Source of the DNA: Deltaproteobacteria bacterium
GTDB taxonomy: Bacteria > Desulfobacterota > Syntrophia > Syntrophales > Smithellaceae
NCBI GenBank assembly: GCA_022710585.1
Contig: JAKLGV010000003.1
Span: 1-64,000 of the forward strand
Direction: 5' to 3'
DNA length: 64,000 bases
In this document: positions 1,034 to 60,648 of the stretch, one piece after another
Layout of the letters: each line of letters opens with the position of its first letter
Position numbering within the stretch: position 1 is the stretch's first letter
The notes under the pieces: model-generated
The model's input: the letters and a program-made list of their open reading frames with translations, nothing else
The model's database searches: none
Told to the model about the DNA's origin: nothing
Position numbers and translations under genes: made by a program

Positions 1034-4000
1034 ATGCAGACGGCCAGAATATTTGATGATGATCCGATTGAAAGCACGGAAAAATTTAACGTCCTGAACA
1101 TCCAGCGCACCTGTGTGCACGACGGTCCCGGGATCCGAACAACAGTTTTCTTTCAGGGATGCCGGTTGAGATGTCTGTGGTGCCAAAATCCGGAAGCGCT
1201 TTCCTTGAAGCCTGTCCGGACTCCCGACTGCGAATATTCCTTGGACAGAATCATGGAAATCGTTCTGCGGGATAAGGATTATTACTTCAAAACCGGCGGC
1301 GGAGTGACACTCAGCGGCGGTGATCCATTATTACAGGACCCGGATAATCTCATTCATCTTTTGAAATTATTAAAGAAGGAAAATATTCATGTTGCCGCCG
1401 AAACGTCCCTGCATGTGCCCTGGGATAATGTGAAACAAGTGGCACCGTATATTGATTTGTTTCTCGTGGATCTAAAAGTCGTCGGCGATGATGAACTTCA
1501 TAAAAAACTTACGAAGCAGGACAGCATTCTCATTCAAAGCAATATCAAAAAGCTGATTGAATTAAATGCTAACATTAAATTCCGGATGGTGATGGTTCCC
1601 GGTTATAACGATGGGGGTGAACAGACAAAAGCGGTTGCCGATTTTCTTAAATCCATCCATTACCAATCGATCGAACTTCTGAAATACCACAACCTGTATG
1701 AAGATAAGGCCAGGCGTCTTGGTCTGGTACGGAAATCGTTGAACATCACGCCGGAGGAAAGCCTTGCTTCAATCAAGAAGGCTTTGGCCGTATTCAAATC
1801 GCAGGACATCGCTGCCGTCTGTTATGATCTGGATTCCATCCGTCATCATGCCGTCTTTACCGATCGGGTTTATGAAATTCAGAAAGACATCCGGGAAAGC
1901 GATTATCACCTGTGCTTTGAAGTCTCCCGACTGAAAACAGAATTTTATAAAAAACAGGGTTTTAACCGGCCTGTTCATATTCACCGCGCGGAGCGTCTCG
2001 CGTATGTGTTGAAAAACAAGAAAGTCATTGTCTATCCCCACGAACTTCTCGTTGGCAATTTTACTTCCAAGAGGGTCGGAGGCCAGGTCTGGGAAGAACA
2101 CTATGGTATTCTCTTTGGTTCCATTCTCCATCAAATGCATCGACAAACGCCGGTTTCATTTCAATGTTCCTGGAAAGACAAGTTGTATTTTTATTGTAAC
2201 ATTTTACCCTTCTGGACCAAACACAGCCTGCTCATAAAAGTAAATAGAAAGCTTTCTGATTTATTTTTAAGCATTTCACGACTCTGTGAAATGAATGCGG
2301 GTTTTAATAACAACATGGCGGCCATCGCGCATTTTATCGTCAACTTCGAACGCCTGTTGAAACTGGGCACAACAGGAATGATCAAAGAAATTGAAGCAAT
2401 CCAAAAAGAAAAACCGGAAGACCATCAGAATTTCTACAAAGCAACCATCATTGCCCTTCAGGCATTGGAAGCTTTTGCTGAAAAATACGAGGATACGTTG
2501 TCGGAATTAATCACGACAGAAAATAATCCCGCGCGGCGCAGAGAACTTGAAGAAATGTCACGGATCTGCCGGCACGTTCCCAAGTATCCCGCCCGCACCT
2601 ATCACGAGGCTCTCCAGTCCATGCTGTTTCTGCAAATCGCACTTTGCATCGAATCCTACGAAAACGCGGTTTCCTTCGGACGTCTCGATCAGATTCTGTA
2701 CCCCTATTATAAAAATGATAAAGAGGCAGGCATCATCACCTACGAAAAAGCGAAGGAGTTGCTGGCCCTGTTTGTTCTAAAAATGGATGAAGCCGTTCTG
2801 GTCAATGACGGTGACACCTATCTGGGAATCGGTCGGCTTTTCGAAACACAATCCACCGATCAGGCTTTGACCTTCGGCGGCGTTGATCATGATGGCAAAG
2901 ACGCCACCAACGATCTGACCTATATGCTGGTGGATATCTGCGAACTCCAACCTTTAGCCGTAAATATGACGGCAAGAATTCATCAGGCCAGTCCCACACA
3001 GTACCTTGACCGACTTGCGGAGGTTTACATCAACGGCGCGCCCATGCCGGAACTTTTCAATGATGATATCTACATCAAGACTCTGCAAAGGCATTATCCG
3101 ATCACCGTACAGAATGCACGGGATTATGCGATTGTAGGATGCGTGGAGCCCAACGCTTCCGATGATCACTTCGGCAATACCGACTGCGCCAACATGAATG
3201 TCGTTCTGCCGTTGCTGCAGGCGCTCAAAGGTGAAGAAGATGATTTATGGAACTTCGGCCCTGCCGATCAGATGGAAAAGATCATCACCAAGTTCATCGA
3301 ATATAATTTCCGCGGCGGCAATAAATTTTCAAAGTTTGTTGCCGACCGATACAGCAAAGCCCTCTCTTCCTATAAAAAGGGAAGAACACCGTTGCCATAC
3401 CCTCCGGCAAGTATGGATGATCTGCTGGAACGTTATCAGAAACGTCTGAATCTTCTGGCGTCATCCATATTAACCGATCATCAGAAAATTGAAAAAGCCA
3501 TCTGTAAGAATTTTACGACGCCTCTGGCATCTTCACTTTCCAGGGGCTGCATCGACAGCGGGAAAGACGTCAACGAAGGAGGCTGCGCTTTCAACAGCTG
3601 CGGTATTCAGGCGGTGGGAATTACCGATGCCGCCGATTCTCTGCACGCGATCAACGAGGTGGTTTACAAGAAAAAAATGTTCTCGATTACGGACATCATT
3701 CATGCCATCGACAACGATTTTGGAGGCGATGATGATCGGCAAATCCGGGAGGCATTGCTGGCCGTACCGAAATTAGGTCGGGATGAATCACTGGAAGCGG
3801 TTGCCTGGGTCAATAAAACACTGGAAATTTATTGCAACGCTTTGAAACAGGTTCCCGACTGTCCGCGGGACGGCATTTATACTGCCGGATATTATGCCTT
3901 GAACGTCAGCGACGTTTATGGAAAGAAAACGCCTTCCCTCCCCTCCGGCAGACTCAAAGGCGTGCCGCTGGCCAACGGCGTCGCCCCTCATTACGGAATG

Positions 4001-4339
4001 CAGATGACGGATCTATTATCGTCGTTGAATTCTGTAGCGGGTGTTGACTTTGAAAAATACGCTCCCAACGGAACCACGGTAACCTTCACCATCGATTCCG
4101 CACTCTTCCAGGGACCTGACGGAGTTAAAAACCTATCCGGTATCTTCAGCACATACTTCAGGAAAGGCGGCATGCAGTTTCAACCCAATGTGATCAACAG
4201 GGAAATACTGCTGGACGCCTATCATCATCCGGAAAAATATCCGTATCTGCTGGTGCGGGTTGCCGGTTACTGCGCATACTTTAATCATCTGTCCGACGAT
4301 TTGAAGAAGGTGATCATTAACAGAACATGTTATTCATAG
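1034..4339 (+). CDS. Fused glycyl radical activase and glycyl radical enzyme
   Basis: A single chain of 1101 aa. Residues about 1-265 are a radical-SAM activating enzyme with the CX3CX2C cluster at Cys43, Cys47 and Cys50 and a GGD motif (SGGDPLL). It lacks the extra ferredoxin-like cysteine insert seen in many non-PFL activases. Residues about 275-1101 are a complete glycyl radical enzyme. The N-terminal part has the family pattern TE-YK...ELLVGN. The active-site loop GCVEP carries the thiyl Cys703 and Glu705. The radical site RVAGY has Gly1078. The C-x-E pattern is typical of dehydratase/lyase/decarboxylase members (choline lyase, glycerol and hydroxyproline dehydratases) rather than PFL or benzylsuccinate synthase. 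The substrate cannot be told from sequence. Activase and enzyme are usually separate genes; here they are joined in frame. A GAAAGGAG ribosome site precedes the ATG. The FadR-like gene upstream probably regulates it. Confidence 0.9.
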   Translation: MQTARIFDDDPIESTEKFNVLNIQRTCVHDGPGIRTTVFFQGCRLRCLWCQNPEALSLKPVRTPDCEYSLDRIMEIVLRDKDYYFKTGGGVTLSGGDPLLQDPDNLIHLLKLLKKENIHVAAETSLHVPWDNVKQVAPYIDLFLVDLKVVGDDELHKKLTKQDSILIQSNIKKLIELNANIKFRMVMVPGYNDGGEQTKAVADFLKSIHYQSIELLKYHNLYEDKARRLGLVRKSLNITPEESLASIKKALAVFKSQDIAAVCYDLDSIRHHAVFTDRVYEIQKDIRESDYHLCFEVSRLKTEFYKKQGFNRPVHIHRAERLAYVLKNKKVIVYPHELLVGNFTSKRVGGQVWEEHYGILFGSILHQMHRQTPVSFQCSWKDKLYFYCNILPFWTKHSLLIKVNRKLSDLFLSISRLCEMNAGFNNNMAAIAHFIVNFERLLKLGTTGMIKEIEAIQKEKPEDHQNFYKATIIALQALEAFAEKYEDTLSELITTENNPARRRELEEMSRICRHVPKYPARTYHEALQSMLFLQIALCIESYENAVSFGRLDQILYPYYKNDKEAGIITYEKAKELLALFVLKMDEAVLVNDGDTYLGIGRLFETQSTDQALTFGGVDHDGKDATNDLTYMLVDICELQPLAVNMTARIHQASPTQYLDRLAEVYINGAPMPELFNDDIYIKTLQRHYPITVQNARDYAIVGCVEPNASDDHFGNTDCANMNVVLPLLQALKGEEDDLWNFGPADQMEKIITKFIEYNFRGGNKFSKFVADRYSKALSSYKKGRTPLPYPPASMDDLLERYQKRLNLLASSILTDHQKIEKAICKNFTTPLASSLSRGCIDSGKDVNEGGCAFNSCGIQAVGITDAADSLHAINEVVYKKKMFSITDIIHAIDNDFGGDDDRQIREALLAVPKLGRDESLEAVAWVNKTLEIYCNALKQVPDCPRDGIYTAGYYALNVSDVYGKKTPSLPSGRLKGVPLANGVAPHYGMQMTDLLSSLNSVAGVDFEKYAPNGTTVTFTIDSALFQGPDGVKNLSGIFSTYFRKGGMQFQPNVINREILLDAYHHPEKYPYLLVRVAGYCAYFNHLSDDLKKVIINRTCYS

Positions 4340-46399: not shown

Positions 46400-46476
<77 letters not shown>

Positions 46477-46484
46477 ATGATTAC

Positions 46485-46518
46485 AAGGGGTTAGTCATTT
46501 AAATGCTAATCCCTTTTT
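46485..46518 (+). terminator. Terminator after tRNA-fMet
   Basis: AAGGGGTTAG (46485-46494) pairs with CTAATCCCTT (46506-46515), one G-T pair, followed by TTTCTTTAT. A typical factor-independent terminator for the tRNA transcript. Confidence 0.6.
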
Positions 46519-46703
46519 CTTTATTTATACCCTATTTCTACCCTGAAACGAGAAATTGGGGGAAATATGGGGTAAACATCTCTTCATTATTCAAACCAGA
46601 TATCGTCTACACCCTGCCCAAATTAAATTATAACAAGATTGCTTTTTTGTATGAGCGCTGTATTATAAAGCCAATTTTACATTACATTCGTGGAGTATAT
46701 CTT

Positions 46704-48245
46704 ATGTCATTTCAGGAAAACATCAAATGGATTGTCCCTCCTGGTCTTGTGCCCACGCTTGAGCAATTTAAAGAACATTGCGATGCTGCTGTACAAGAAA
46801 TGATGCCGGTGCTTATATATGGAGATACAGGTATTGGCAAGTCGTTATTCCTTCGCATTTATGAAGATATTTACAAAAGACAATTTGGACAAAAGATCAA
46901 AATAATCCGTGTAAATTGCTCTCATTTTGCAGGAGCAGATCCAAGGATTGCTCAAACTGAACTTTTCGGAGCAGTGAGAGGAGTAGCAAGCGGCATTAAC
47001 AAAAATATTGATGGAATGGTTTTCGTGGCTAATGATGGGCTTTTAGTTCTTGATGAAATTGGAGAACTTCCACTTGAAGTGCAGGCGATGCTTCTCACAT
47101 ATATCGAAACCGGTGAATTCAGAAAGTTGGGTTCATCTGAAACAGAAAAATCTAATGCGTTGATAGTAGCTGCAACAAATCGTCCGGAAGAATTGAGAAG
47201 AGATTTTTATCAAAGATTTTTTCCATTCCAGATCCCGTCCCTATATAAAAGACGTTTTGATGTTCTTTATTATTTTGCCAGTATTTATCCCGAATTAGTC
47301 CACCGATTAACAACTCAACAAGTCCTCTCTTTGATTGCCTATAACTGGCCAGGTAATGTTCGGGAGATTAAACGAATGGGATTACTTCTTAAAAGAAATA
47401 TAGGTAAAGCTGTTCTTAGTGAATCGAAAATTGAAGGCCAATCCGAGTATAAGGAATTGTCTAATTATGATTATGGGTGGGGTGTTATCAGTTTTGGTTC
47501 TGCACTATCTGAACTGGAAGAACTTTCTGAAGAAGAGAGAAACCGTCCGTATTCAACTATTCCGCCAGTTAGTAATCTAGACCAAATAAATGATATTCTA
47601 GAACAGCATTTTGTAAATACCGAACCTTTACGTTCCGTAATGAAAAGTCCGTTTAATGGTTTTCAAGAAAAAGCGTTATATCTTAACTCTGTTGATGATT
47701 CAGGAATTCAAATACTTGCTGAATTTGAACCATTTGAAAAAGCGTATAAGGGCTATAAGATATTTTGCGCTCTTTTTTTGCAAAATGAAAATCAAAACAG
47801 CAATGCCCTGCGACTGAAGCGGTATACGTTAGAAACACCGTTTTTTACCGTTACAGAACGAAGAAAATTAAGCAAATTAACCAAGGACGTGGGCTTATCC
47901 ATTGTCAAAGATCTTGCTGGTTTAAATGATGATGATATTGATCAAAGAATGAGGGAAATCACGTTTTCCGATAATCGAATCAATTTATTGAAAAATCTTT
48001 ATGAACGAAATCCGGACAATCTTTTCTTTCTTAATCTTTTCGGTGCGAAGAAAGATGAAGAATTGCAGACAGAAAAAATTGATCTATCCGGTTATAGACT
48101 CGAAGATTTATTGAAATCTTATTATTCTCAGATTTTACGAAAAACCGGCGGTGTTGAAAAGGTAGCTGCCGGTTTAGTAGGAATGCCTTATACGAGTTTT
48201 CGTGACGATTTAAGAAGGCTTGGTATAAAAAGAAAAATAATATGA
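46704..48245 (+). CDS. Sigma-54-activator-like AAA+ regulator lacking GAFTGA
   Basis: 513 aa from ATG 46704, picked because GTGGAGTATATCTT precedes it; the frame opens earlier at 46503 with a poor start and no family similarity. AAA+ domain at about residues 15-250: Walker A YGDTGIGKS (40-47), Walker B LLVLDEIGE, sensor motif NALIVAATNRP, and NWPGNVREIKRM. At the position of the sigma-54-binding GAFTGA loop it has ELFGAVRGVASG, which does not match, so ability to drive sigma-54 polymerase is doubtful. The middle is unknown, and the C-terminus (about 475-510) is Fis-like (GGVEKVAAGLVGMPYTSFRDDL). It is the first gene of the AT-rich accessory region and may control the elements in it. Confidence 0.75.
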   Translation: MSFQENIKWIVPPGLVPTLEQFKEHCDAAVQEMMPVLIYGDTGIGKSLFLRIYEDIYKRQFGQKIKIIRVNCSHFAGADPRIAQTELFGAVRGVASGINKNIDGMVFVANDGLLVLDEIGELPLEVQAMLLTYIETGEFRKLGSSETEKSNALIVAATNRPEELRRDFYQRFFPFQIPSLYKRRFDVLYYFASIYPELVHRLTTQQVLSLIAYNWPGNVREIKRMGLLLKRNIGKAVLSESKIEGQSEYKELSNYDYGWGVISFGSALSELEELSEEERNRPYSTIPPVSNLDQINDILEQHFVNTEPLRSVMKSPFNGFQEKALYLNSVDDSGIQILAEFEPFEKAYKGYKIFCALFLQNENQNSNALRLKRYTLETPFFTVTERRKLSKLTKDVGLSIVKDLAGLNDDDIDQRMREITFSDNRINLLKNLYERNPDNLFFLNLFGAKKDEELQTEKIDLSGYRLEDLLKSYYSQILRKTGGVEKVAAGLVGMPYTSFRDDLRRLGIKRKII

Positions 48246-48444: not shown

Positions 48445-48627
48445 ATGAAACCAGAGTATGTTAATGAGAAAGAAGCAGCGCGTATCACGGGACTGGCTGT
48501 GAAAACGCTGCAAAACTTTCGCTACCTGAAACGAGAAATCCCTTATGCAAAAATAGGTTCAGCGTGCCGTTATAAAGTTCAGGATTTGATTGATTATATG
48601 GAGTCCAAAAGGGTGCATGTAAAATGA
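48445..48627 (+). CDS. AlpA/excisionase-like small HTH protein
   Basis: 60 aa. A helix-turn-helix runs from EKEAARITGLAVKTLQNFR, with the usual wing and a trailing DLIDYMESKRV. This is the MerR/AlpA-type fold of small phage and island excisionase/activator proteins. The ribosome site ATAGGAGGCTGCGAAA is strong. It lies 54 bp after the palindromic control region and is followed 14 bp later by the next gene. It may promote excision or control the element's genes. Confidence 0.75.
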   Translation: MKPEYVNEKEAARITGLAVKTLQNFRYLKREIPYAKIGSACRYKVQDLIDYMESKRVHVK

Positions 48628-49379: not shown

Positions 49380-49712
49380 ATGTTAATTGATAATCATGAA
49401 ATTGAAGTTCTGGAAATCAGGCCATTCGTCAGTAAATCCATGCAAGCTTTTATTGATGTCAGAATCGATTTTGTTATTGCTTACGGTATGAAAATTATGA
49501 AAAACGAAAACAGCGAACTTTGGGTGGCTTTTCCGAGCATTGAAAAAGATGGGAAATATTTTGATTGCATTGGTATCGACAGCCGAAGTTTTGAGCGCCA
49601 ACTTAAGGCTGAAATTTTGAAACAGTACAGGCAAAAAATTGGCAACAATGCAAATGACTTCAATACTGCAACCCCAATTCCAACTTTTGATACATCTGAC
49701 TGGAGGGATTGA
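49380..49712 (+). CDS. SpoVG-like protein
   Basis: 110 aa. The core IEVLEIRPFVSKSMQAFIDV, FVIAYGMKIMKNENSELWVAFPS, then IEKDGKYFDCI and RQLKAEILKQY follows the SpoVG pattern (short beta-sheet domain, ...IVEG--GLFVAMPS). SpoVG proteins bind nucleic acids and modulate gene expression. In mobile elements related genes lie next to primases, as here: the stop overlaps the ribosome site of the D5-type gene, which starts 2 bp later. Weak ribosome site of its own. Confidence 0.55.
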   Translation: MLIDNHEIEVLEIRPFVSKSMQAFIDVRIDFVIAYGMKIMKNENSELWVAFPSIEKDGKYFDCIGIDSRSFERQLKAEILKQYRQKIGNNANDFNTATPIPTFDTSDWRD

Positions 49713-49714
49713 AG

Positions 49715-52087
49715 ATGCTGGTCTCATTCGCCAAGACTGTCCGATCCAGTGCAGTAGAGCGCATTGATTTTGATAATATAATAACAATGATGCGAACTGA
49801 TGTACTGATTCAAAAAAAAATATTGCATTTACGCTCCTTAAATCGTGAGGATGAACTCCGACGATATAAATCGTCGGAGTTGCCTTATTTTACTTTCGGC
49901 GAATTTCGTAACAACATACGAAGCGACGTCAATTTATTAAAAATTAAATTTATTATCATTGATATTGACAATCTAACTACAGAACAGACTGTCAAATTTA
50001 AGACGACACTGAAGGATGATGAGGGCGTTTTTTGTGCCTTCATTAGCCCTTCGGGGTTAGGTATTAAAATTATTTACGAACTTGACACAGAACTTACCGA
50101 GAAAACAAAATATAACAGATTGTACAAGGCTTTTCTCGATTGGTTCCGGGAGAAGTACGGAGTGGAACCGGATGAAAAAACATCTGACCCCAGCCGGCCA
50201 TGCTTTGTTTCACACGATCCAGATTTGATACTGCATGAACAACATGAGTTAGTATCCGTTACCGGATGCTTAGAATATTGGGAAAATAAATACGGTAAGA
50301 AAGAAAGTGCGCCACCTGCTTCAAATCCCAGGCAGAAGGATACATTGCCATCGCAATCTCAGCGTTTCCCCAACAGTATTGACATGCACGCATTATTGTT
50401 GGCTGTTGATTTTTTAATTAAAAAAAATAACGAGATGAGTGGGATCTACGATTCATACAACACGTGGCAGGTACTCGGTTTGTCTCTTGCGGCAATCGGT
50501 GAGCAAGGACGAGAACCATTTATCCGGCTCAGCTTGGGTAATACAAAATTTCATGATAGCGAAACTGACCTTCATAACGAATTCAATAAGCTGATAAAAT
50601 ATTACGGACTGAATCCTAATCCTGTCAGAATAAACACGTTGTTTCACATCGCCAAGCAGCATGGGTGGCAGTCTCCCCATAGTGTTAACGAGAATGATAG
50701 CCCAGTATATGATGGAAGCGATGTCGACAACGCTGAAATATTCATCCGTCATCACCTCAATGAGATTCGCGCGTTTCATAACTTTGGTAGTGACGACAAG
50801 CATAATACATTTTTTCGATGGTTTCTCTGGGATGGCAAAAGATGGAAAACTGACAGCAAAGCAGCAATATTTGACCTTATCAGGAAGACGATCAAACGGC
50901 TCAAAAAAGATGCGTTGAAGTGTCAAGATCGGAAGCTTGCTGATCGCATGGACGATGCCTCAAATGGACTGAAAAAGCTGCATAAGCAACGGGCCTTGTT
51001 ATATCAGGTGTCGACCGACGTAAGAATAACATTGGAAAATAAAGAAATAGACAGCGATCCTGATTTGTTCAACGTTCTAAACGGAACTCTCGATTTTTCC
51101 GGTCATGAAATCGTTTTCAGAAATCATGACAGGCAAGACAATATTACAAAAATTTCAAACGTAACATATGACGCCGACGCATCCTGTCCGCAGTGGCTTG
51201 CCTTTCTTGATAAGGTATGCAGTTCCAATAAAGATGTAATTTTATTTCTGCAAAAAGCAGTTGGACTTTCTCTTACTGGCGATATTTCGCAGCAATGCGT
51301 TTTTTTTATTTATGGATCCGGTGGTAACGGTAAATCAGTTTTTTTTAAAGTTCTTATGTATATTTTCGGCAATTATGCCCAGAAAGCTCCGGCCAGTATG
51401 CTGACGCAGCAACGGTTTTTGCCAATTCCAATCGACATTGCAAGACTCAAGGGAAGACGCTTCGTTGTCGCCTCAGAGCTTGATGAAGGAGCGGCGTTTG
51501 ATGAGGCTCGATTGAAGGATCTGACAGGCGGGGATGTCCTTGTTGCCCGCTTAATGCGTCAGGATTTCTTCGAATTCGAGCCAGTCCATAAACTGTGGCT
51601 ATTCGGAAATCATCGGCCAACAATCCATGGTACCGACGAGGGTATCTGGCGTAGAATGAAGCTTATCCCTTTCACGGCGGTCATATCACCGCAGGAGCGA
51701 ATTCCAATGAACATACTGGTAGCAACTCTGAAAGCTGAGGCTAGCGGTATTCTAAATTGGGCCATTGCTGGTTTAATCGATTATAGAAAATATGGATTGG
51801 GTTCACCACAAATTATTCAGGAAGCAACTGACGAATACAAAAAAGACAGCAACTCCATCGGTCGATTCATTGATGATTGTTGTGTCTTGGGATCTTCTCA
51901 CAGTTGTCTGGCTAAAGATCTTTATAAAAGTTTTATTAAATGGTCGCAGGATAATGGTGAATTAATTATCAGTCAGAAAAAATTTCACGCGAAGCTGCGC
52001 GATGCCGGTTATATCTCTGTAATCGGAACCGCTAATAAGACCTTTTGGAGGAACATTGGTATAAAGGCCGATGCTCATATAATTTAA
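49715..52087 (+). CDS. D5-type primase/helicase (phage or plasmid replication protein)
   Basis: 790 aa from ATG 49715; a TTG at 49709 is possible but the GGAGG spacing favours 49715. The N-terminal region (about 1-180) resembles the BT4734/VirE-type AEP/primase-related domain (KFIIIDIDNL, FCAFISPSGLGIKIIYE). A middle helical region follows. The D5_N and SF3 helicase part begins about residue 430 (GSGGNGKSVFFKVLM Walker A at about 535, VVASELDEG Walker B, LWLFGNHRPTI motif C, then EGIWRRMKLIPF). SF3 helicases unwind replication origins of phages, plasmids and satellites. It is the main sign that this segment is a mobile element able to replicate. Terminator-like hairpins follow. Confidence 0.85.
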   Translation: MLVSFAKTVRSSAVERIDFDNIITMMRTDVLIQKKILHLRSLNREDELRRYKSSELPYFTFGEFRNNIRSDVNLLKIKFIIIDIDNLTTEQTVKFKTTLKDDEGVFCAFISPSGLGIKIIYELDTELTEKTKYNRLYKAFLDWFREKYGVEPDEKTSDPSRPCFVSHDPDLILHEQHELVSVTGCLEYWENKYGKKESAPPASNPRQKDTLPSQSQRFPNSIDMHALLLAVDFLIKKNNEMSGIYDSYNTWQVLGLSLAAIGEQGREPFIRLSLGNTKFHDSETDLHNEFNKLIKYYGLNPNPVRINTLFHIAKQHGWQSPHSVNENDSPVYDGSDVDNAEIFIRHHLNEIRAFHNFGSDDKHNTFFRWFLWDGKRWKTDSKAAIFDLIRKTIKRLKKDALKCQDRKLADRMDDASNGLKKLHKQRALLYQVSTDVRITLENKEIDSDPDLFNVLNGTLDFSGHEIVFRNHDRQDNITKISNVTYDADASCPQWLAFLDKVCSSNKDVILFLQKAVGLSLTGDISQQCVFFIYGSGGNGKSVFFKVLMYIFGNYAQKAPASMLTQQRFLPIPIDIARLKGRRFVVASELDEGAAFDEARLKDLTGGDVLVARLMRQDFFEFEPVHKLWLFGNHRPTIHGTDEGIWRRMKLIPFTAVISPQERIPMNILVATLKAEASGILNWAIAGLIDYRKYGLGSPQIIQEATDEYKKDSNSIGRFIDDCCVLGSSHSCLAKDLYKSFIKWSQDNGELIISQKKFHAKLRDAGYISVIGTANKTFWRNIGIKADAHII

Positions 52088-52345: not shown

Positions 52346-52834
52346 ATGAATAATACGGAAAAGATTGAAGCAGAAATTATGCAAATCATTTTCTCTAAGG
52401 CTGAGTCAGGATTTGCAGTGATTAGAGCGAAAGATGTAAATATGAAAAATATTTTCACTGCAGTAGGAAAAATCCAGGGTGCAAAAGTCGGTGCAATAAT
52501 TGAAATGAATGGTTATTGGTTCAATAGTGAAAAATACGGGGTGCAGTTTAAAGTGATGGGTTCATCAATATCCGTACCTCAAAACCTTGCAGGCATAATT
52601 AACTATTTAGGCTCTGCTTTTGTGGATGCAGTCGGCCACAAATCAGCCAGGAGAATTGTCGATTTCTTTGGAGAACAAACTTTAGACATTCTGGAGAACG
52701 ACATCGAAAAGCTCGCATTGGTGCCTGGAATCGGTCCGGTACGAGTTCGCAACATCATTCTCGCGTGGAACGAGCAAAAAACATTCAACATCATAATTAA
52801 GAGGGATTTGCTCTCAAAGAATGAGCATCATTGA
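52346..52834 (+). CDS. Stand-alone RecD2 N-terminal domain (OB fold and HhH)
   Basis: 162 aa. The pattern IMQIIFSKAESGFAVIRAKD, FTAVGKIQGAKVGAIIEMNGYW and KYGVQFKVMGS matches the N-terminal OB-fold of RecD2 (YrrC) helicases. LAGIINYLGSAFVDAVGHKSARRIVDFFGE and LALVPGIGPVRVRNI form the helix-hairpin-helix part. The protein ends there, without the helicase motor. It is a natural stand-alone fragment, or a remnant, likely to bind DNA ends or junctions. Strong ribosome site TGGAGGATAAACC, so it looks like a functional gene. Terminator follows at 52903. Confidence 0.7.
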   Translation: MNNTEKIEAEIMQIIFSKAESGFAVIRAKDVNMKNIFTAVGKIQGAKVGAIIEMNGYWFNSEKYGVQFKVMGSSISVPQNLAGIINYLGSAFVDAVGHKSARRIVDFFGEQTLDILENDIEKLALVPGIGPVRVRNIILAWNEQKTFNIIIKRDLLSKNEHH

Positions 52835-52902
52835 CTGTGCTAAATTGTTAAATTCATTAGTCCGATAATAATCAACTAAAATAAATATAGATCAATCATT
52901 GA

Positions 52903-52938
52903 AAAGCCCGCTGTGAAAATATCTCAGCGGGCTTTTTC
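52903..52938 (+). terminator. Rho-independent terminator
   Basis: AAAGCCCGCTG (52903-52913) pairs with CAGCGGGCTTT (52925-52935), followed by TTCG. A strong GC-rich stem in AT-rich surroundings, separating the RecD2-N gene from the TGT-like gene. Confidence 0.75.
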
Positions 52939-52955: not shown

Positions 52956-54017
52956 ATGGGTGACGTTCGATATGTAGTATCGGGGTGTCGCAGTGCAGAT
53001 CTATTCCCAGTAAAAGGAAGAAACGCAGCGCTCATGCTGGCAATCCCCAATATATTAAAAAACAATTCATCGCTAAAGAATGCTAATAAATTATCTAAAA
53101 GAAGCAAAGAATTATATTTTGATTCAGGAGGAAGACAAATTTATGAAATCACCAACAATAAAAGTAAGAGATACAAGCGATTCACATCGGAAAGAAACAA
53201 ACCGGTTTATTTTGGTGATACTTTAAATATTCATGTTTCACATCTGGAACAGGCAGTAAAAATGTTTCGGCCAAAATATCTTCTCGGTTTGGACTTTCCT
53301 ATTCGATCAAGTTCTGATCCGCAGGAGCAGAACAGGCGATTTCACAAAACGCTTAATATAAATTATTCCTGGGCGAAAAGTACAATTGCCATTAGAGACA
53401 AACATTTCCCGTATCTGAAAGTGATTTTGCCATTGCAGACTCAAAATATTCAAAATCTTCTTCAATACTGGAATCAAATTAAACATCTAAAACCCGATGG
53501 TGTGGCTTTACCCATGAGATGTTTTAAAAATGACAACAGGTTAATAGAAGTTCTTTTGGAAATTCATAAACTGAAAATCAAGGAAGTCCATTTATTGGGA
53601 AGTTCCAGAATTGGAACAATTATTATTAGTTCATTTCTGGCAAGAAATAACTATTTTCAGAATATTACTCTGGACAGTGGAACATGGCGACAGGCCGCAG
53701 ATCGAGGGAAAGTGATAATACCCTATGACTTGCGGGAAGTCCACATTGGTGATAAAAATTGCATAATTACCGAAAGAACAAGTAAACTGCCGAAAGAATG
53801 GACATTAAAACTTATGAAAGTTATCGATGCTGCCGGGGGGAGTAATGAACATAAGAAGTTGAGGGAGTTTAATTTTGCTGCAATTCAAACAACGATTAAA
53901 GACATACAAAAAAATGCCGACACACCATTAAAAATAAAAACCTATTTATCCGAAAGATCAACAAGAACCGAAGATATTGAAAAAATCTGTCATCTATTAA
54001 ACAGAATACCGACCTAA
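52956..54017 (+). CDS. TGT-superfamily protein, DpdA-like
   Basis: 353 aa. Aligns by eye with tRNA-guanine transglycosylase: DSGG at residues 56-59 (substrate-base loop DSGGFQ, with Arg for Phe), LGLDFPI with Asp113 at the AFDECTP position, LPLQTQNIQNLLQ at the substrate Gln loop, DGVALPM at the GLAVGE loop, and ITLDSGTWRQAADRG with Asp240 at the catalytic aspartate. The TGT zinc site (CxCxxC...H) is missing. This combination is typical of DpdA-type enzymes, which put 7-deazaguanine bases into DNA; other TGT paralogs cannot be ruled out. No preQ0 synthesis gene is in view, so the base would come from the host queuosine pathway. Good ribosome site CAGGAGAAATAAT. It is the last plus-strand gene before 54128. 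Confidence 0.6.
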   Translation: MGDVRYVVSGCRSADLFPVKGRNAALMLAIPNILKNNSSLKNANKLSKRSKELYFDSGGRQIYEITNNKSKRYKRFTSERNKPVYFGDTLNIHVSHLEQAVKMFRPKYLLGLDFPIRSSSDPQEQNRRFHKTLNINYSWAKSTIAIRDKHFPYLKVILPLQTQNIQNLLQYWNQIKHLKPDGVALPMRCFKNDNRLIEVLLEIHKLKIKEVHLLGSSRIGTIIISSFLARNNYFQNITLDSGTWRQAADRGKVIIPYDLREVHIGDKNCIITERTSKLPKEWTLKLMKVIDAAGGSNEHKKLREFNFAAIQTTIKDIQKNADTPLKIKTYLSERSTRTEDIEKICHLLNRIPT

Positions 54018-57671: not shown

Positions 57672-58388
57672 ATGGATAGCGAACCAAGGAAAAGACCGGG
57701 TGGAGAGCTGGCGACGAGACCTCTACATTTCATTTGGATTTGTGATTGTTCCGGTTCGATGAGTACTGACGGGAAAATACAGTCACTGAATAATGCAATC
57801 AGAGAAGCGATTCCGCATATGAAAAGTGTAGCGGATGAAAACCCAAATGCGCAAGTTCTTGTTCGGGCAATATGTTTTTCAAATGGTGCTCAATGGCACA
57901 TATCTCAACCGACACCGGTCGAAGACTTTAAATGGAGCGACCTGAGCGCTGATGGCGTTACCGATCTGGGAAAAGCGTTAAATATGGTTGCGGAACAGCT
58001 TAAAATTCCTCCAATGACAGATAGGGCATTGCCGCCCGTGTTAGTTCTCCTTTCAGACGGGCAACCGACGGACGATTATGCCAATGGATTAAAGGCCCTA
58101 ATGAATGAACCCTGGGGTAAAAAGGCGGTGAGGGTAGCCATTGCAATTGGAAGCGACACCGATATTGATGTATTGCAAAAATTTATCGGAAATCCGGAAT
58201 TAAAACCACTACAGGCAAATAATGCCGAGGCTTTAGTTAAATACATCAAATGGGTATCTACAGCAGTTCTTAAGTCGGCATCTTCTCCTGCCAGTCAAAC
58301 CAAAGATTCACAACTACAAAACTCAAATGTTCCAATTCCGAAGATTGATGATTCTGCCAATCCATCTTCTGCCGGTGATATATGGTGA
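57672..58388 (+). CDS. TerY-like VWA-domain protein
   Basis: 238 aa. An intact metal-ion-dependent adhesion site: DCSGSMS (DxSxS) near residue 26, GVTDLGKAL (the T) and LLSDGQPTDD (the D). The N-terminus RPLHFIWICDCSGSM is typical of TerY proteins. The C-terminal 40 residues are a low-complexity Ser/Gln/Pro tail. In TerY-P systems the VWA protein is thought to be an assembly or sensor partner of the phosphatase and kinase that follow (gaps of 7 and 39 bp). Cytoplasmic. Confidence 0.85.
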   Translation: MDSEPRKRPGGELATRPLHFIWICDCSGSMSTDGKIQSLNNAIREAIPHMKSVADENPNAQVLVRAICFSNGAQWHISQPTPVEDFKWSDLSADGVTDLGKALNMVAEQLKIPPMTDRALPPVLVLLSDGQPTDDYANGLKALMNEPWGKKAVRVAIAIGSDTDIDVLQKFIGNPELKPLQANNAEALVKYIKWVSTAVLKSASSPASQTKDSQLQNSNVPIPKIDDSANPSSAGDIW

Positions 58389-58395
58389 ATAAAAT

Positions 58396-59289
58396 ATGCG
58401 GGCGAATAATGAAACAATATTATGGCAATATATTGGAAACTCTGTAAGAGGTGCTTCGCACATAAGAAATGGTCTGGTCAATCAGGATGCCCTTAAATCA
58501 TCCCTTGCAGAAGCAGAATTTGGACAGGTATTGTGCATCGCGGTTGCCGATGGGCATGGCGGCAATAAATATTTTCGCAGTAACGTTGGCGCAAAATATG
58601 CTGTTGACATTGCATTGGATACGCTGACCCTAATTAATAAGGAGATGAAAGATTTATCTTCTGTCAAGCGAACTCTCGAAGAACAGCTTCCCAAAATACT
58701 TGTGCAAAAATGGATAGAAGCCATCAATGAACATTTGGTTCAAAATCCTATAAGCGATGATGAATTGTCTGCGCTTGAAACAAAGGAAGGCAAGTCTTCC
58801 CTTGATGCGATTAAAAAAAATAATCTTCTCATATATGGTGCGACACTCCTCAGTGTTTTATTGACCGAATCTTATGCCATATATTTACAGATCGGAGATG
58901 GGGATATTCTCATTGTTGATCAGGAGGGCGAAGTAAACAGGCCTTATGAAAATGACGACAGGCTTATTGCAAATGAAACGACTTCCCTGTGTTCAAGAGA
59001 TGCATGGCGGGATTTCCGTTCTGCTTTTCAGGTATTTTCGGGAAAACCACCGGCGCTAATTTTAATTTCAACTGATGGCTACGCCAATTCATTTCAAAGT
59101 GAATCTGAATTTAAGAAAGTCGGTACGGACATATTAGGTATGATCAGGGCCGAAAGTATAGAAAAAATTAATAATGAATTGGAACAATGGCTTAATGAAG
59201 CTTCGGAACAGGGCAGTGGCGATGACATCTCACTGGCCTTGGCGTATTGTGTGACCGGGCGTAATGAATCATTGGCGGAAAGCAGATGA
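58396..59289 (+). CDS. PP2C-family protein phosphatase
   Basis: 297 aa. PP2C metal-binding motifs: VADGHGGNKY (motif 2), IYLQIGDGDI (motif 5), LISTDGYANSF (motif 8) and QGSGDDISLA (motif 11, with DD for DN). The N-terminus has GASHIRNGLVNQDA, the RNG-NQD form of this domain. Dephosphorylates Ser/Thr targets, probably of the kinase encoded next. The ribosome site is weak. Part of the triad with the VWA gene upstream. Confidence 0.88.
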   Translation: MRANNETILWQYIGNSVRGASHIRNGLVNQDALKSSLAEAEFGQVLCIAVADGHGGNKYFRSNVGAKYAVDIALDTLTLINKEMKDLSSVKRTLEEQLPKILVQKWIEAINEHLVQNPISDDELSALETKEGKSSLDAIKKNNLLIYGATLLSVLLTESYAIYLQIGDGDILIVDQEGEVNRPYENDDRLIANETTSLCSRDAWRDFRSAFQVFSGKPPALILISTDGYANSFQSESEFKKVGTDILGMIRAESIEKINNELEQWLNEASEQGSGDDISLALAYCVTGRNESLAESR

Positions 59290-59328
59290 ATTAATCGAGT
59301 TATAGAACAAGTATTGGGGAGAACAAGC

Positions 59329-60648
59329 ATGAATCAGTTGCTTCAACCAAAACAAAAAGTAAAGACGGTAACATCCAATATGGATTGCGAAGTAGAAAAA
59401 TTTCTTGGAGGCGGTGGTCAAGGAGAGGTCTATCGCGCAGACCTGAATGGCGCAAAAGTAGCACTTAAGTGGTATTACCCCGCGCAAGCAACAGAAAATC
59501 AAAAAACTGCATTGGAAGCACTTATTAAGAAGGGGTCTCCGAGCGATCGGTTCCTGTGGCCAATTGACTTAACAACTTCAAAAGATATTCCAGCATTTGG
59601 ATATATTATGGGGTTGCGGGAGCCTCAGCACAAAAATATTGTCGATTTGATGAAGGGCCGCACCAATCCAACTTTTTTTGCACTTGCAACCACAGGCATG
59701 CAATTGGCACACAATTTCCTGCTGCTCCATTCAAACGGGCTTTGTTATTGCGATATTTCATTCGGCAATGTTTTTTTTGATCCTATCACAGGAGATATAC
59801 TCATTTGTGATAATGACAATGTCGGCATTGATGGCCTGGCTCCCATCAGTGTACTGGGGACACCCCGTTTTATGGCTCCTGAAATTGTTCGCCGTGAAGC
59901 TTTGCCTAGTACCCGGACTGATTTATTCTCTTTATCCGTATTATTATTTTATATGATGATGATTCATCACCCTTTGGAAGGTGCCAGGGAAGCTTCGATT
60001 AAATGCCTGGACGCTCCAGCGATGAATAAATTATATGGTACGGAACCTCTTTTTATCTTTGATCCTGATGACGACTCAAATCATCCTATTAAAGGATATC
60101 ACGATAATGCTCTCACTTATTGGAATATTTATCCGACATTTCTGAAAAACCTTTTTATCCAATCTTTTACTCAAGGTATACGTGACCCTATAAACGGGAG
60201 GGTCAGGGAAAGCGAATGGCGAAAAGCCATGGTTCGGCTAAGGGATAGTATCATTATCTGTCAACATTGCGGTTCTGAAAATTTTTATGATGAAGAAGTA
60301 CTCAAAAACAGTGGAAAACTAAATTCCTGCTGGCAATGCAGGAAAGACTTTCAAATACCTCCGCGTATTCGCATAGACAAGAGAATCGTCATGCTTAATT
60401 CCAACACGAAGCTGTATCCGCATCATGTCGACAGAGATAAACGATACGATTTTTCAACACCGGTTGCCGAGATTGCCCGTCATCCTCAAAATCCAAACAT
60501 ATGGGGTTTAAGAAACATTTCCTCAGAAAAGTGGAATACAACAGGTAAGGATGGATTATTGAAAGATATCGAACCGGGTAAAAGTGTTACTTTAACAAAT
60601 GAAACGAAAATCAATTTCGGCAAAGCCGAGGGAGAAATACGAAGCTAA
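59329..60648 (+). CDS. Ser/Thr-type protein kinase with zinc ribbon, TerY-P triad
   Basis: 439 aa from ATG 59329; GGGGAGAACAAGC precedes it, and the frame opens slightly earlier at 59314. Glycine loop GGGGQGEVY, ATP-lysine in VALKWYYP, catalytic loop YCDISFGNVFFDP in place of the common HRDLKPxN, metal-binding DNDN in place of DFG, and the APE-equivalent MAPEIVRRE. The catalytic Asp is kept in CDIS-GN, so it is probably an active but divergent kinase. After the kinase domain there is a zinc ribbon (CQHCGSENFY ... CWQCRKDF, about residues 304-340), then a beta-rich tail. It probably phosphorylates a partner in the operon, reversed by the PP2C. Confidence 0.85.
   Translation: MNQLLQPKQKVKTVTSNMDCEVEKFLGGGGQGEVYRADLNGAKVALKWYYPAQATENQKTALEALIKKGSPSDRFLWPIDLTTSKDIPAFGYIMGLREPQHKNIVDLMKGRTNPTFFALATTGMQLAHNFLLLHSNGLCYCDISFGNVFFDPITGDILICDNDNVGIDGLAPISVLGTPRFMAPEIVRREALPSTRTDLFSLSVLLFYMMMIHHPLEGAREASIKCLDAPAMNKLYGTEPLFIFDPDDDSNHPIKGYHDNALTYWNIYPTFLKNLFIQSFTQGIRDPINGRVRESEWRKAMVRLRDSIIICQHCGSENFYDEEVLKNSGKLNSCWQCRKDFQIPPRIRIDKRIVMLNSNTKLYPHHVDRDKRYDFSTPVAEIARHPQNPNIWGLRNISSEKWNTTGKDGLLKDIEPGKSVTLTNETKINFGKAEGEIRS

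Follow-up and report, generated by a model that had tools for sequence, protein, structure and literature searches.

The gene considered here lies in a 64,000-nucleotide stretch of DNA, referred to below as the window. It occupies positions 52956..54017 of the + strand and encodes a TGT-like protein of 353 amino acids, designated P0001; the initial annotation of this DNA had given the same position and strand. The open reading frame is intact, starts with ATG, ends with TAA and is open across the full length of the protein family described below. An AGGAGA ribosome-binding site stands immediately 5′ of it, and the opposite strand is closed. The gene is found in single copy in the host genome.

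A strong GC-rich hairpin followed by a run of T residues, similar to an intrinsic terminator, is present at 52901..52937 (+) and ends ∼10 bases before the ribosome-binding site. The 121-nt leader of the gene folds at -27.2 kcal/mol (z -4.05). No riboswitch was found before the gene, and an Rfam scan of the leader returned no family at the gathering threshold. The terminator-like hairpin makes expression of P0001 uncertain, and as it leaves no space for a promoter, expression may require read-through or antitermination.

The integrated element and its genes

P0001 is part of an integrated element of ∼53.7 kb with tRNA-Met attachment repeats and a tyrosine integrase, of which the window holds the left third only. 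The left attachment repeat lies inside tRNA-Met(CAT) and comprises its 3′ 48 bp (46429..46476, +), 44 of which are identical to the right copy at C23:100120-100167. This right repeat adjoins the tyrosine integrase (C23:98741-99961, - strand), which is similar to integrases of elements that carry relatives of P0001; both are found beyond the window, ∼35-36 kb past its right end. The GC content is 0.40 within the element and 0.48 and 0.47 outside it. On related contigs, the right flank of the integration site was not present. Detached copies of the tRNA-Met 3′ end, 45-48 bp long and 98-100% identical, are found in four other genomes of the genus (G034, G030, G037 and G038), which suggests that tRNA-Met is a common integration site in this genus.

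Several genes of the element lie upstream of P0001, all on the + strand. A sigma-54-type AAA+ protein (46503..48245) is related to one in an element of genome G189 (L014; blastp E 3.5e-11), and a small HTH_17 protein of the excisionase type follows at 48445..48627 (PF12728, E 1e-8). A PrimPol plus P4/D5-type primase-helicase is encoded at 49709..52087 (TIGR01613, 288 bits; PHROG DNA primase, E 5e-116), and its helicase part is homologous to the helicase beside the TGT-like gene of G154 (L017_11233 at locus L017, blastp E 6e-49). The immediate upstream neighbour of P0001, at 52346..52834, encodes a stand-alone OB plus helix-hairpin-helix protein of 162 amino acids (PF23139, E 2e-14; PF14520, E 3e-7). 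It resembles the N-terminus of RecD2/YrrC without the helicase and matches the N-terminal 141 positions of TIGR01448. Further genes of the element encode SSB-, RadC-, UvrD- and HU-like proteins, a PD-(D/E)XK nuclease and a dynamin-like GTPase. No phage structural genes were noticed in the ∼53.7-kb element.

Other loci were observed in passing. VWA, PP2C-like and protein-kinase-like genes stand in a row inside the element (window 57672-60648), and G540 has a similar-looking VWA/PP2C/kinase trio (L061:4236-7245) within a few kb of its own TGT-like gene. A 244-amino-acid protein at L041:1387-2121 (C23:84186-84920, - strand) appears by eye to be a uracil-DNA glycosylase relative and has no Pfam match. 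At window positions 1034-4339, a 1101-amino-acid open reading frame displays an apparent fusion of a radical-SAM activating enzyme at the N-terminal end with a glycyl radical enzyme at the C-terminal end, which are normally encoded by two genes. The G540 trio, this fusion and several of the element gene names were read from sequence alone.

A diverged TGT family in mobile elements

Direct profile scans of P0001 against Pfam, PHROGs, PADLOC, NCBIfam and PDB sequences gave nothing usable; a PRC-barrel match (E 0.017) was weak, below the cut-off and was rejected. A six-frame search of 155 genomes of the order detected relatives in G020 (E 1.6e-25) and G154 (E 7e-25). In the phylum, a profile search brought in G341 and, with two copies, G189; G540 (two copies), G661, G662, G768, G851 and G875 (three copies) came from a search within the class of G189. 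Members are sparse: matches occurred in three of the 395 phylum genomes sampled and in seven of the 389 from the class of G189. No relatives were found in viral contigs or in phage and plasmid collections. The proteins range from 353 to 428 amino acids.

The initial annotation considered the protein TGT-like, and homologues, profile-profile comparison and fold all agree on this. Five relatives score 41, 30, 41, 60 and 59 bits against Pfam TGT (PF01702), the cut-off of which is 26.3 bits, and the two proteins at 59-60 bits match nearly the entire domain. By hhalign, the match between the family profile and that of ordinary Tgt spans 243 columns (probability 97, E 7e-11); among PDB sequences, the solved protein nearest to it is archaeosine TGT (1iq8, E 5e-11). 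An AlphaFold model of P0001, built from three sequences (P0001 and two homologues), has a pLDDT of 74 and a pTM of 0.79, residues 60-91 and 114-119 being the less confident parts; P0001 alone gave a pLDDT of 37.5. The best 50 Foldseek rows for the model are TGT only (E 1.6e-10), and comparison with human TGT yields a Z of 21.3 across 313 residues, nearly the full extent of the protein. P0001 as a highly diverged member of the TGT superfamily with a TGT fold is thus well supported.

That P0001 could instead be an unrelated TIM barrel with a chance likeness to TGT is very improbable. The thought arises from the missing direct matches to Pfam TGT, PHROGs, NCBIfam and PADLOC, but homologues exceed the Pfam TGT cut-off, all top fold matches are TGT, and neither sequence nor fold comparison places the protein with another TIM-barrel family. 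The absent Pfam match itself means little, because the verified DpdA of phage 9g also misses Pfam TGT. As neither Pfam TGT nor the NCBIfam DpdA model detects P0001, current family models can miss DNA modifiers of the TGT type.

Across the alignment of 13 family proteins, eight positions never vary: D56, D113, P115, R188, H212, L214, D240 and N306. Q161 is kept in 12 of the 13. The initial annotation had assigned Asp56, Asp113, a Gln loop and Asp240 to TGT catalytic places, and the alignments bear this out. DSGG (D56), LGLD (D113) and Q161 are in register with TDSGGFQ, MCLD and IIQGG of Tgt in the profile-profile alignment, and D240 aligns with the aspartate of DSASY in archaeosine TGT (residue 249 of chain 1iq8), the nucleophile of that enzyme. 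The catalytic Asp and the two base-binding Asp (D240, D56 and D113) are present in all 13 proteins. P0001 retains every residue that is invariant in the 12 other members, these three and R188/H212 included, and its catalytic centre is, as judged from such residues, intact.

Two further features had been proposed, a changed base-recognition loop and a lost zinc site. The loop is indeed changed, but not chiefly at DSGGRQ; the clearer change is from FDGYALGG in Tgt to DGVALPMR, whereby the LGG of Tgt is replaced in the family by A-L-P-x-R, the Arg being the invariant R188. The zinc site, CxCxxC...H, is absent in P0001, L014, L015 and L062 and present in the nine other aligned relatives. In a maximum-likelihood tree, P0001 groups with the zinc-bearing relatives (96/99), its own branch being unusually long (1.88); the nine clade relatives all carry the motif and P0001 has none of its four ligands, so that loss of the site is confirmed. 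Of 28 columns invariant in these nine, P0001 keeps 20, and the eight losses include the four zinc ligands. The losses are therefore, as far as aligned columns indicate, concentrated on the zinc site, with 20 of the 24 non-zinc columns kept (hypergeometric p ∼0.003, by hand calculation). Absence of zinc does not exclude membership of the TGT superfamily, because phage DpdA also lacks the site.

In the same tree the TGT-like family forms a single group (94/92) separate from both Tgt and phage DpdA, at a depth that is unreliable because long branches meet there. Weak sub-threshold matches to DUF6610 (PF20314) were seen in three family members (L017:9811-10920, L058:9380-10663 and L056:9399-10682), and DUF6610 may itself be related to TGT.

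Neighbouring genes and the supply of preQ0

Relatives at L013, L014 and L016 are near tyrosine integrases, and so, as judged by reading the sequence alone, are those at L055-L058 and L063. A conserved neighbour of ∼370-505 amino acids stands beside the TGT-like gene at L013, L016, L017, L055, L060 and L061, and a second partner group at L015, L062 and L063; the two groups are interrelated (hhalign probability 83, E 9e-6). These partners are termed ParB-like on the basis of GxRR-type motifs and weak matches; they have no Pfam ParB match, and a match to a solved ParB is weak (E 0.8). A ParB-like gene thus adjoins the TGT-like gene at nine of 14 loci. L056-L059 are without it, and there a primase-like gene comes immediately after the TGT-like gene, with a one-base overlap in L059.

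No homologue of the ParB-like partner is found anywhere in the 53.7-kb element of P0001, no dpdC-K genes were recognized near P0001, and no preQ0 genes are in the element. The earlier remark that the gene stands alone without dpd partners holds for this element but not for the family, given the neighbour at nine of 14 loci. The element of P0001 has either lost the ParB-like partner or does without it.

The initial annotation had proposed a search of the genome for queuosine genes, and the host does carry them: queC scores over its cut-off and stands in tandem with queE- and queD-like genes after it, so the host should have a supply of both preQ0 and its precursor CDG. Archaeosine TGT uses preQ0, and phage DpdA is likewise a preQ0 enzyme. 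The genome also has a separate ordinary Tgt gene with a queA-type gene beside it. This genuine Tgt already covers the housekeeping role in tRNA queuosine, for which P0001 is unnecessary.

Possible function and relation to known systems

Phages and dpd islands are known to carry bases of the 7-deazaguanine type in their DNA. The family described here is perhaps best explained, by a modest balance of the evidence, as a new TGT subfamily of mobile elements that puts 7-deazaguanine into element DNA. In mobile elements, genes for these enzymes repeatedly neighbour replication genes and ParB-like genes, so DNA is the most likely target. This proposed substrate is argued by analogy with phage and bacterial DpdA, from the mobile elements, the primase neighbours and the ParB-like partner of the relatives. 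That the enzyme is active, that preQ0 is its base and that protection is its purpose are likewise inferred, preQ0 from the genomic setting and the likeness of motifs.

P0001 would exchange guanine in the DNA of its own element for a 7-deazaguanine of the preQ0 type. By analogy with TGT, Asp240 would attack the nucleotide and form a covalent intermediate, with Asp56 as acid/base; Asp56, Asp113 and Gln161 would hold the guanine-like face, and the changed loop with the invariant Arg188 may read the C7 substituent. The base would come from the host queC-queE-queD pathway. The modification might protect the element against restriction or label its DNA during replication, and the ParB-like partner encoded alongside in most relatives would work like DpdB.

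Against a DpdA-like reading are the long branch of P0001, its missing zinc site and ParB-like partner, the lack of preQ0 genes and of a recognized dpdC in the element, and the terminator-like hairpin before the gene. A less probable alternative is an active TGT that, like archaeosine TGT and Tgt, modifies RNA instead, whether tRNA of the host or of the element or some other RNA. It would fit a sequence profile that is closest to these two enzymes and a zinc site kept in most relatives. P0001 itself lacks that site, however, the genome already has a Tgt, and the neighbours are DNA-replication and ParB-like genes, not tRNA genes or a queA-type gene. The family proteins are also much shorter than archaeosine TGT, which has 582 residues and C-terminal domains that recognize tRNA.

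Loss of catalysis in P0001 is similarly improbable. The protein would then be a scaffold or regulatory paralogue, comparable to QTRT2 in its relation to QTRT1, or the product of a decaying gene in an element that lacks its partner; the long branch, the lost zinc site, the missing ParB-like gene and the terminator-like hairpin in front could all be read in this way. A frame open over the full family length, the retention of all residues invariant in the other members and the concentration of losses on the zinc site speak against it. Rather less likely still is that the family forms a separate, replication-coupled base-exchange system of integrative elements, in which Arg188 would read a non-cyano C7 group such as the carboxyl of CDG and the ParB-like partner would help to mark element DNA during copying.

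If modification of element DNA is correct, 7-deazaguanine in DNA would extend to mobile elements other than phages; integrative elements would then have a distinct TGT subfamily, with a partner of its own and a changed base pocket. D240, R188 and H212 are defined residues for testing which base is inserted.

Resemblance to DpdA, as put forward in the initial annotation, stands in part. H212 and LDSGTW of P0001 align with H196 (VHGFG) and CDSSSW of 9g DpdA, but these motifs are also in archaeal TgtA, and the curated DpdA model NF041059 (200 bits) matches neither P0001 nor the eight family proteins scanned. In 19 genomes of the phylum NF041059 gave sub-threshold matches, which were set aside; most of those inspected are ordinary Tgts. 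Sequence similarity to TGTs that act on tRNA exceeds that to DpdA. As the curated model gives no match and the partner is absent, P0001 is not classed as a DpdA, although it most likely works like one.

Bacterial Tgt, the queuosine enzyme, has the same fold (Z about 20-21) and the D56/D113/Q161 motifs in register, but after the core the host Tgt displays RYLMGVG and FDCVIPTR in place of the VHLLGSS and LDSTTW of the family. Archaeosine TGT (TgtA/ArcTGT), the best sequence match, is closer here with VHLFG and DSASY, and most relatives share its CxCPxC zinc site. The family differs in having no C-terminal tRNA-binding domains, in its invariant base-loop Arg and in its occurrence in bacterial mobile elements, and P0001 also in its absent zinc ligands.

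The 9g DpdA shares DSG, LD, VH-x-x-G and DSSSW motifs with the family, its Asp72, Asp114, His196 and Asp215 being in matching places, and like P0001 has no zinc site. Its whole-length similarity to the family is weak (probability 42, E 2.6e-4), and it keeps the GG base loop, which the family does not. His196 is described as conserved in DpdA (Hutinet et al., PMC6884629); such a residue does not alone separate DpdA from TGT, because archaeosine TGT also has it. Phages also usually supply preQ0 genes themselves. Mycobacteriophages have a cluster of a ParB-like gene, a dpdA-like gene and preQ0 genes, and some phage DpdAs are without a ParB-like neighbour. DpdB is described as a ParB-family partner of DpdA (PMC6392294, PMC12839542, PMC11888242). 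Compared with the DpdA and DpdB of bacterial dpd islands, the present family differs in giving no match to NF041059 and in that no dpdC-K genes were recognized near P0001; it resembles them in the genomic-island setting and in its ParB-like neighbour (PMC12839542, PMC11888242).
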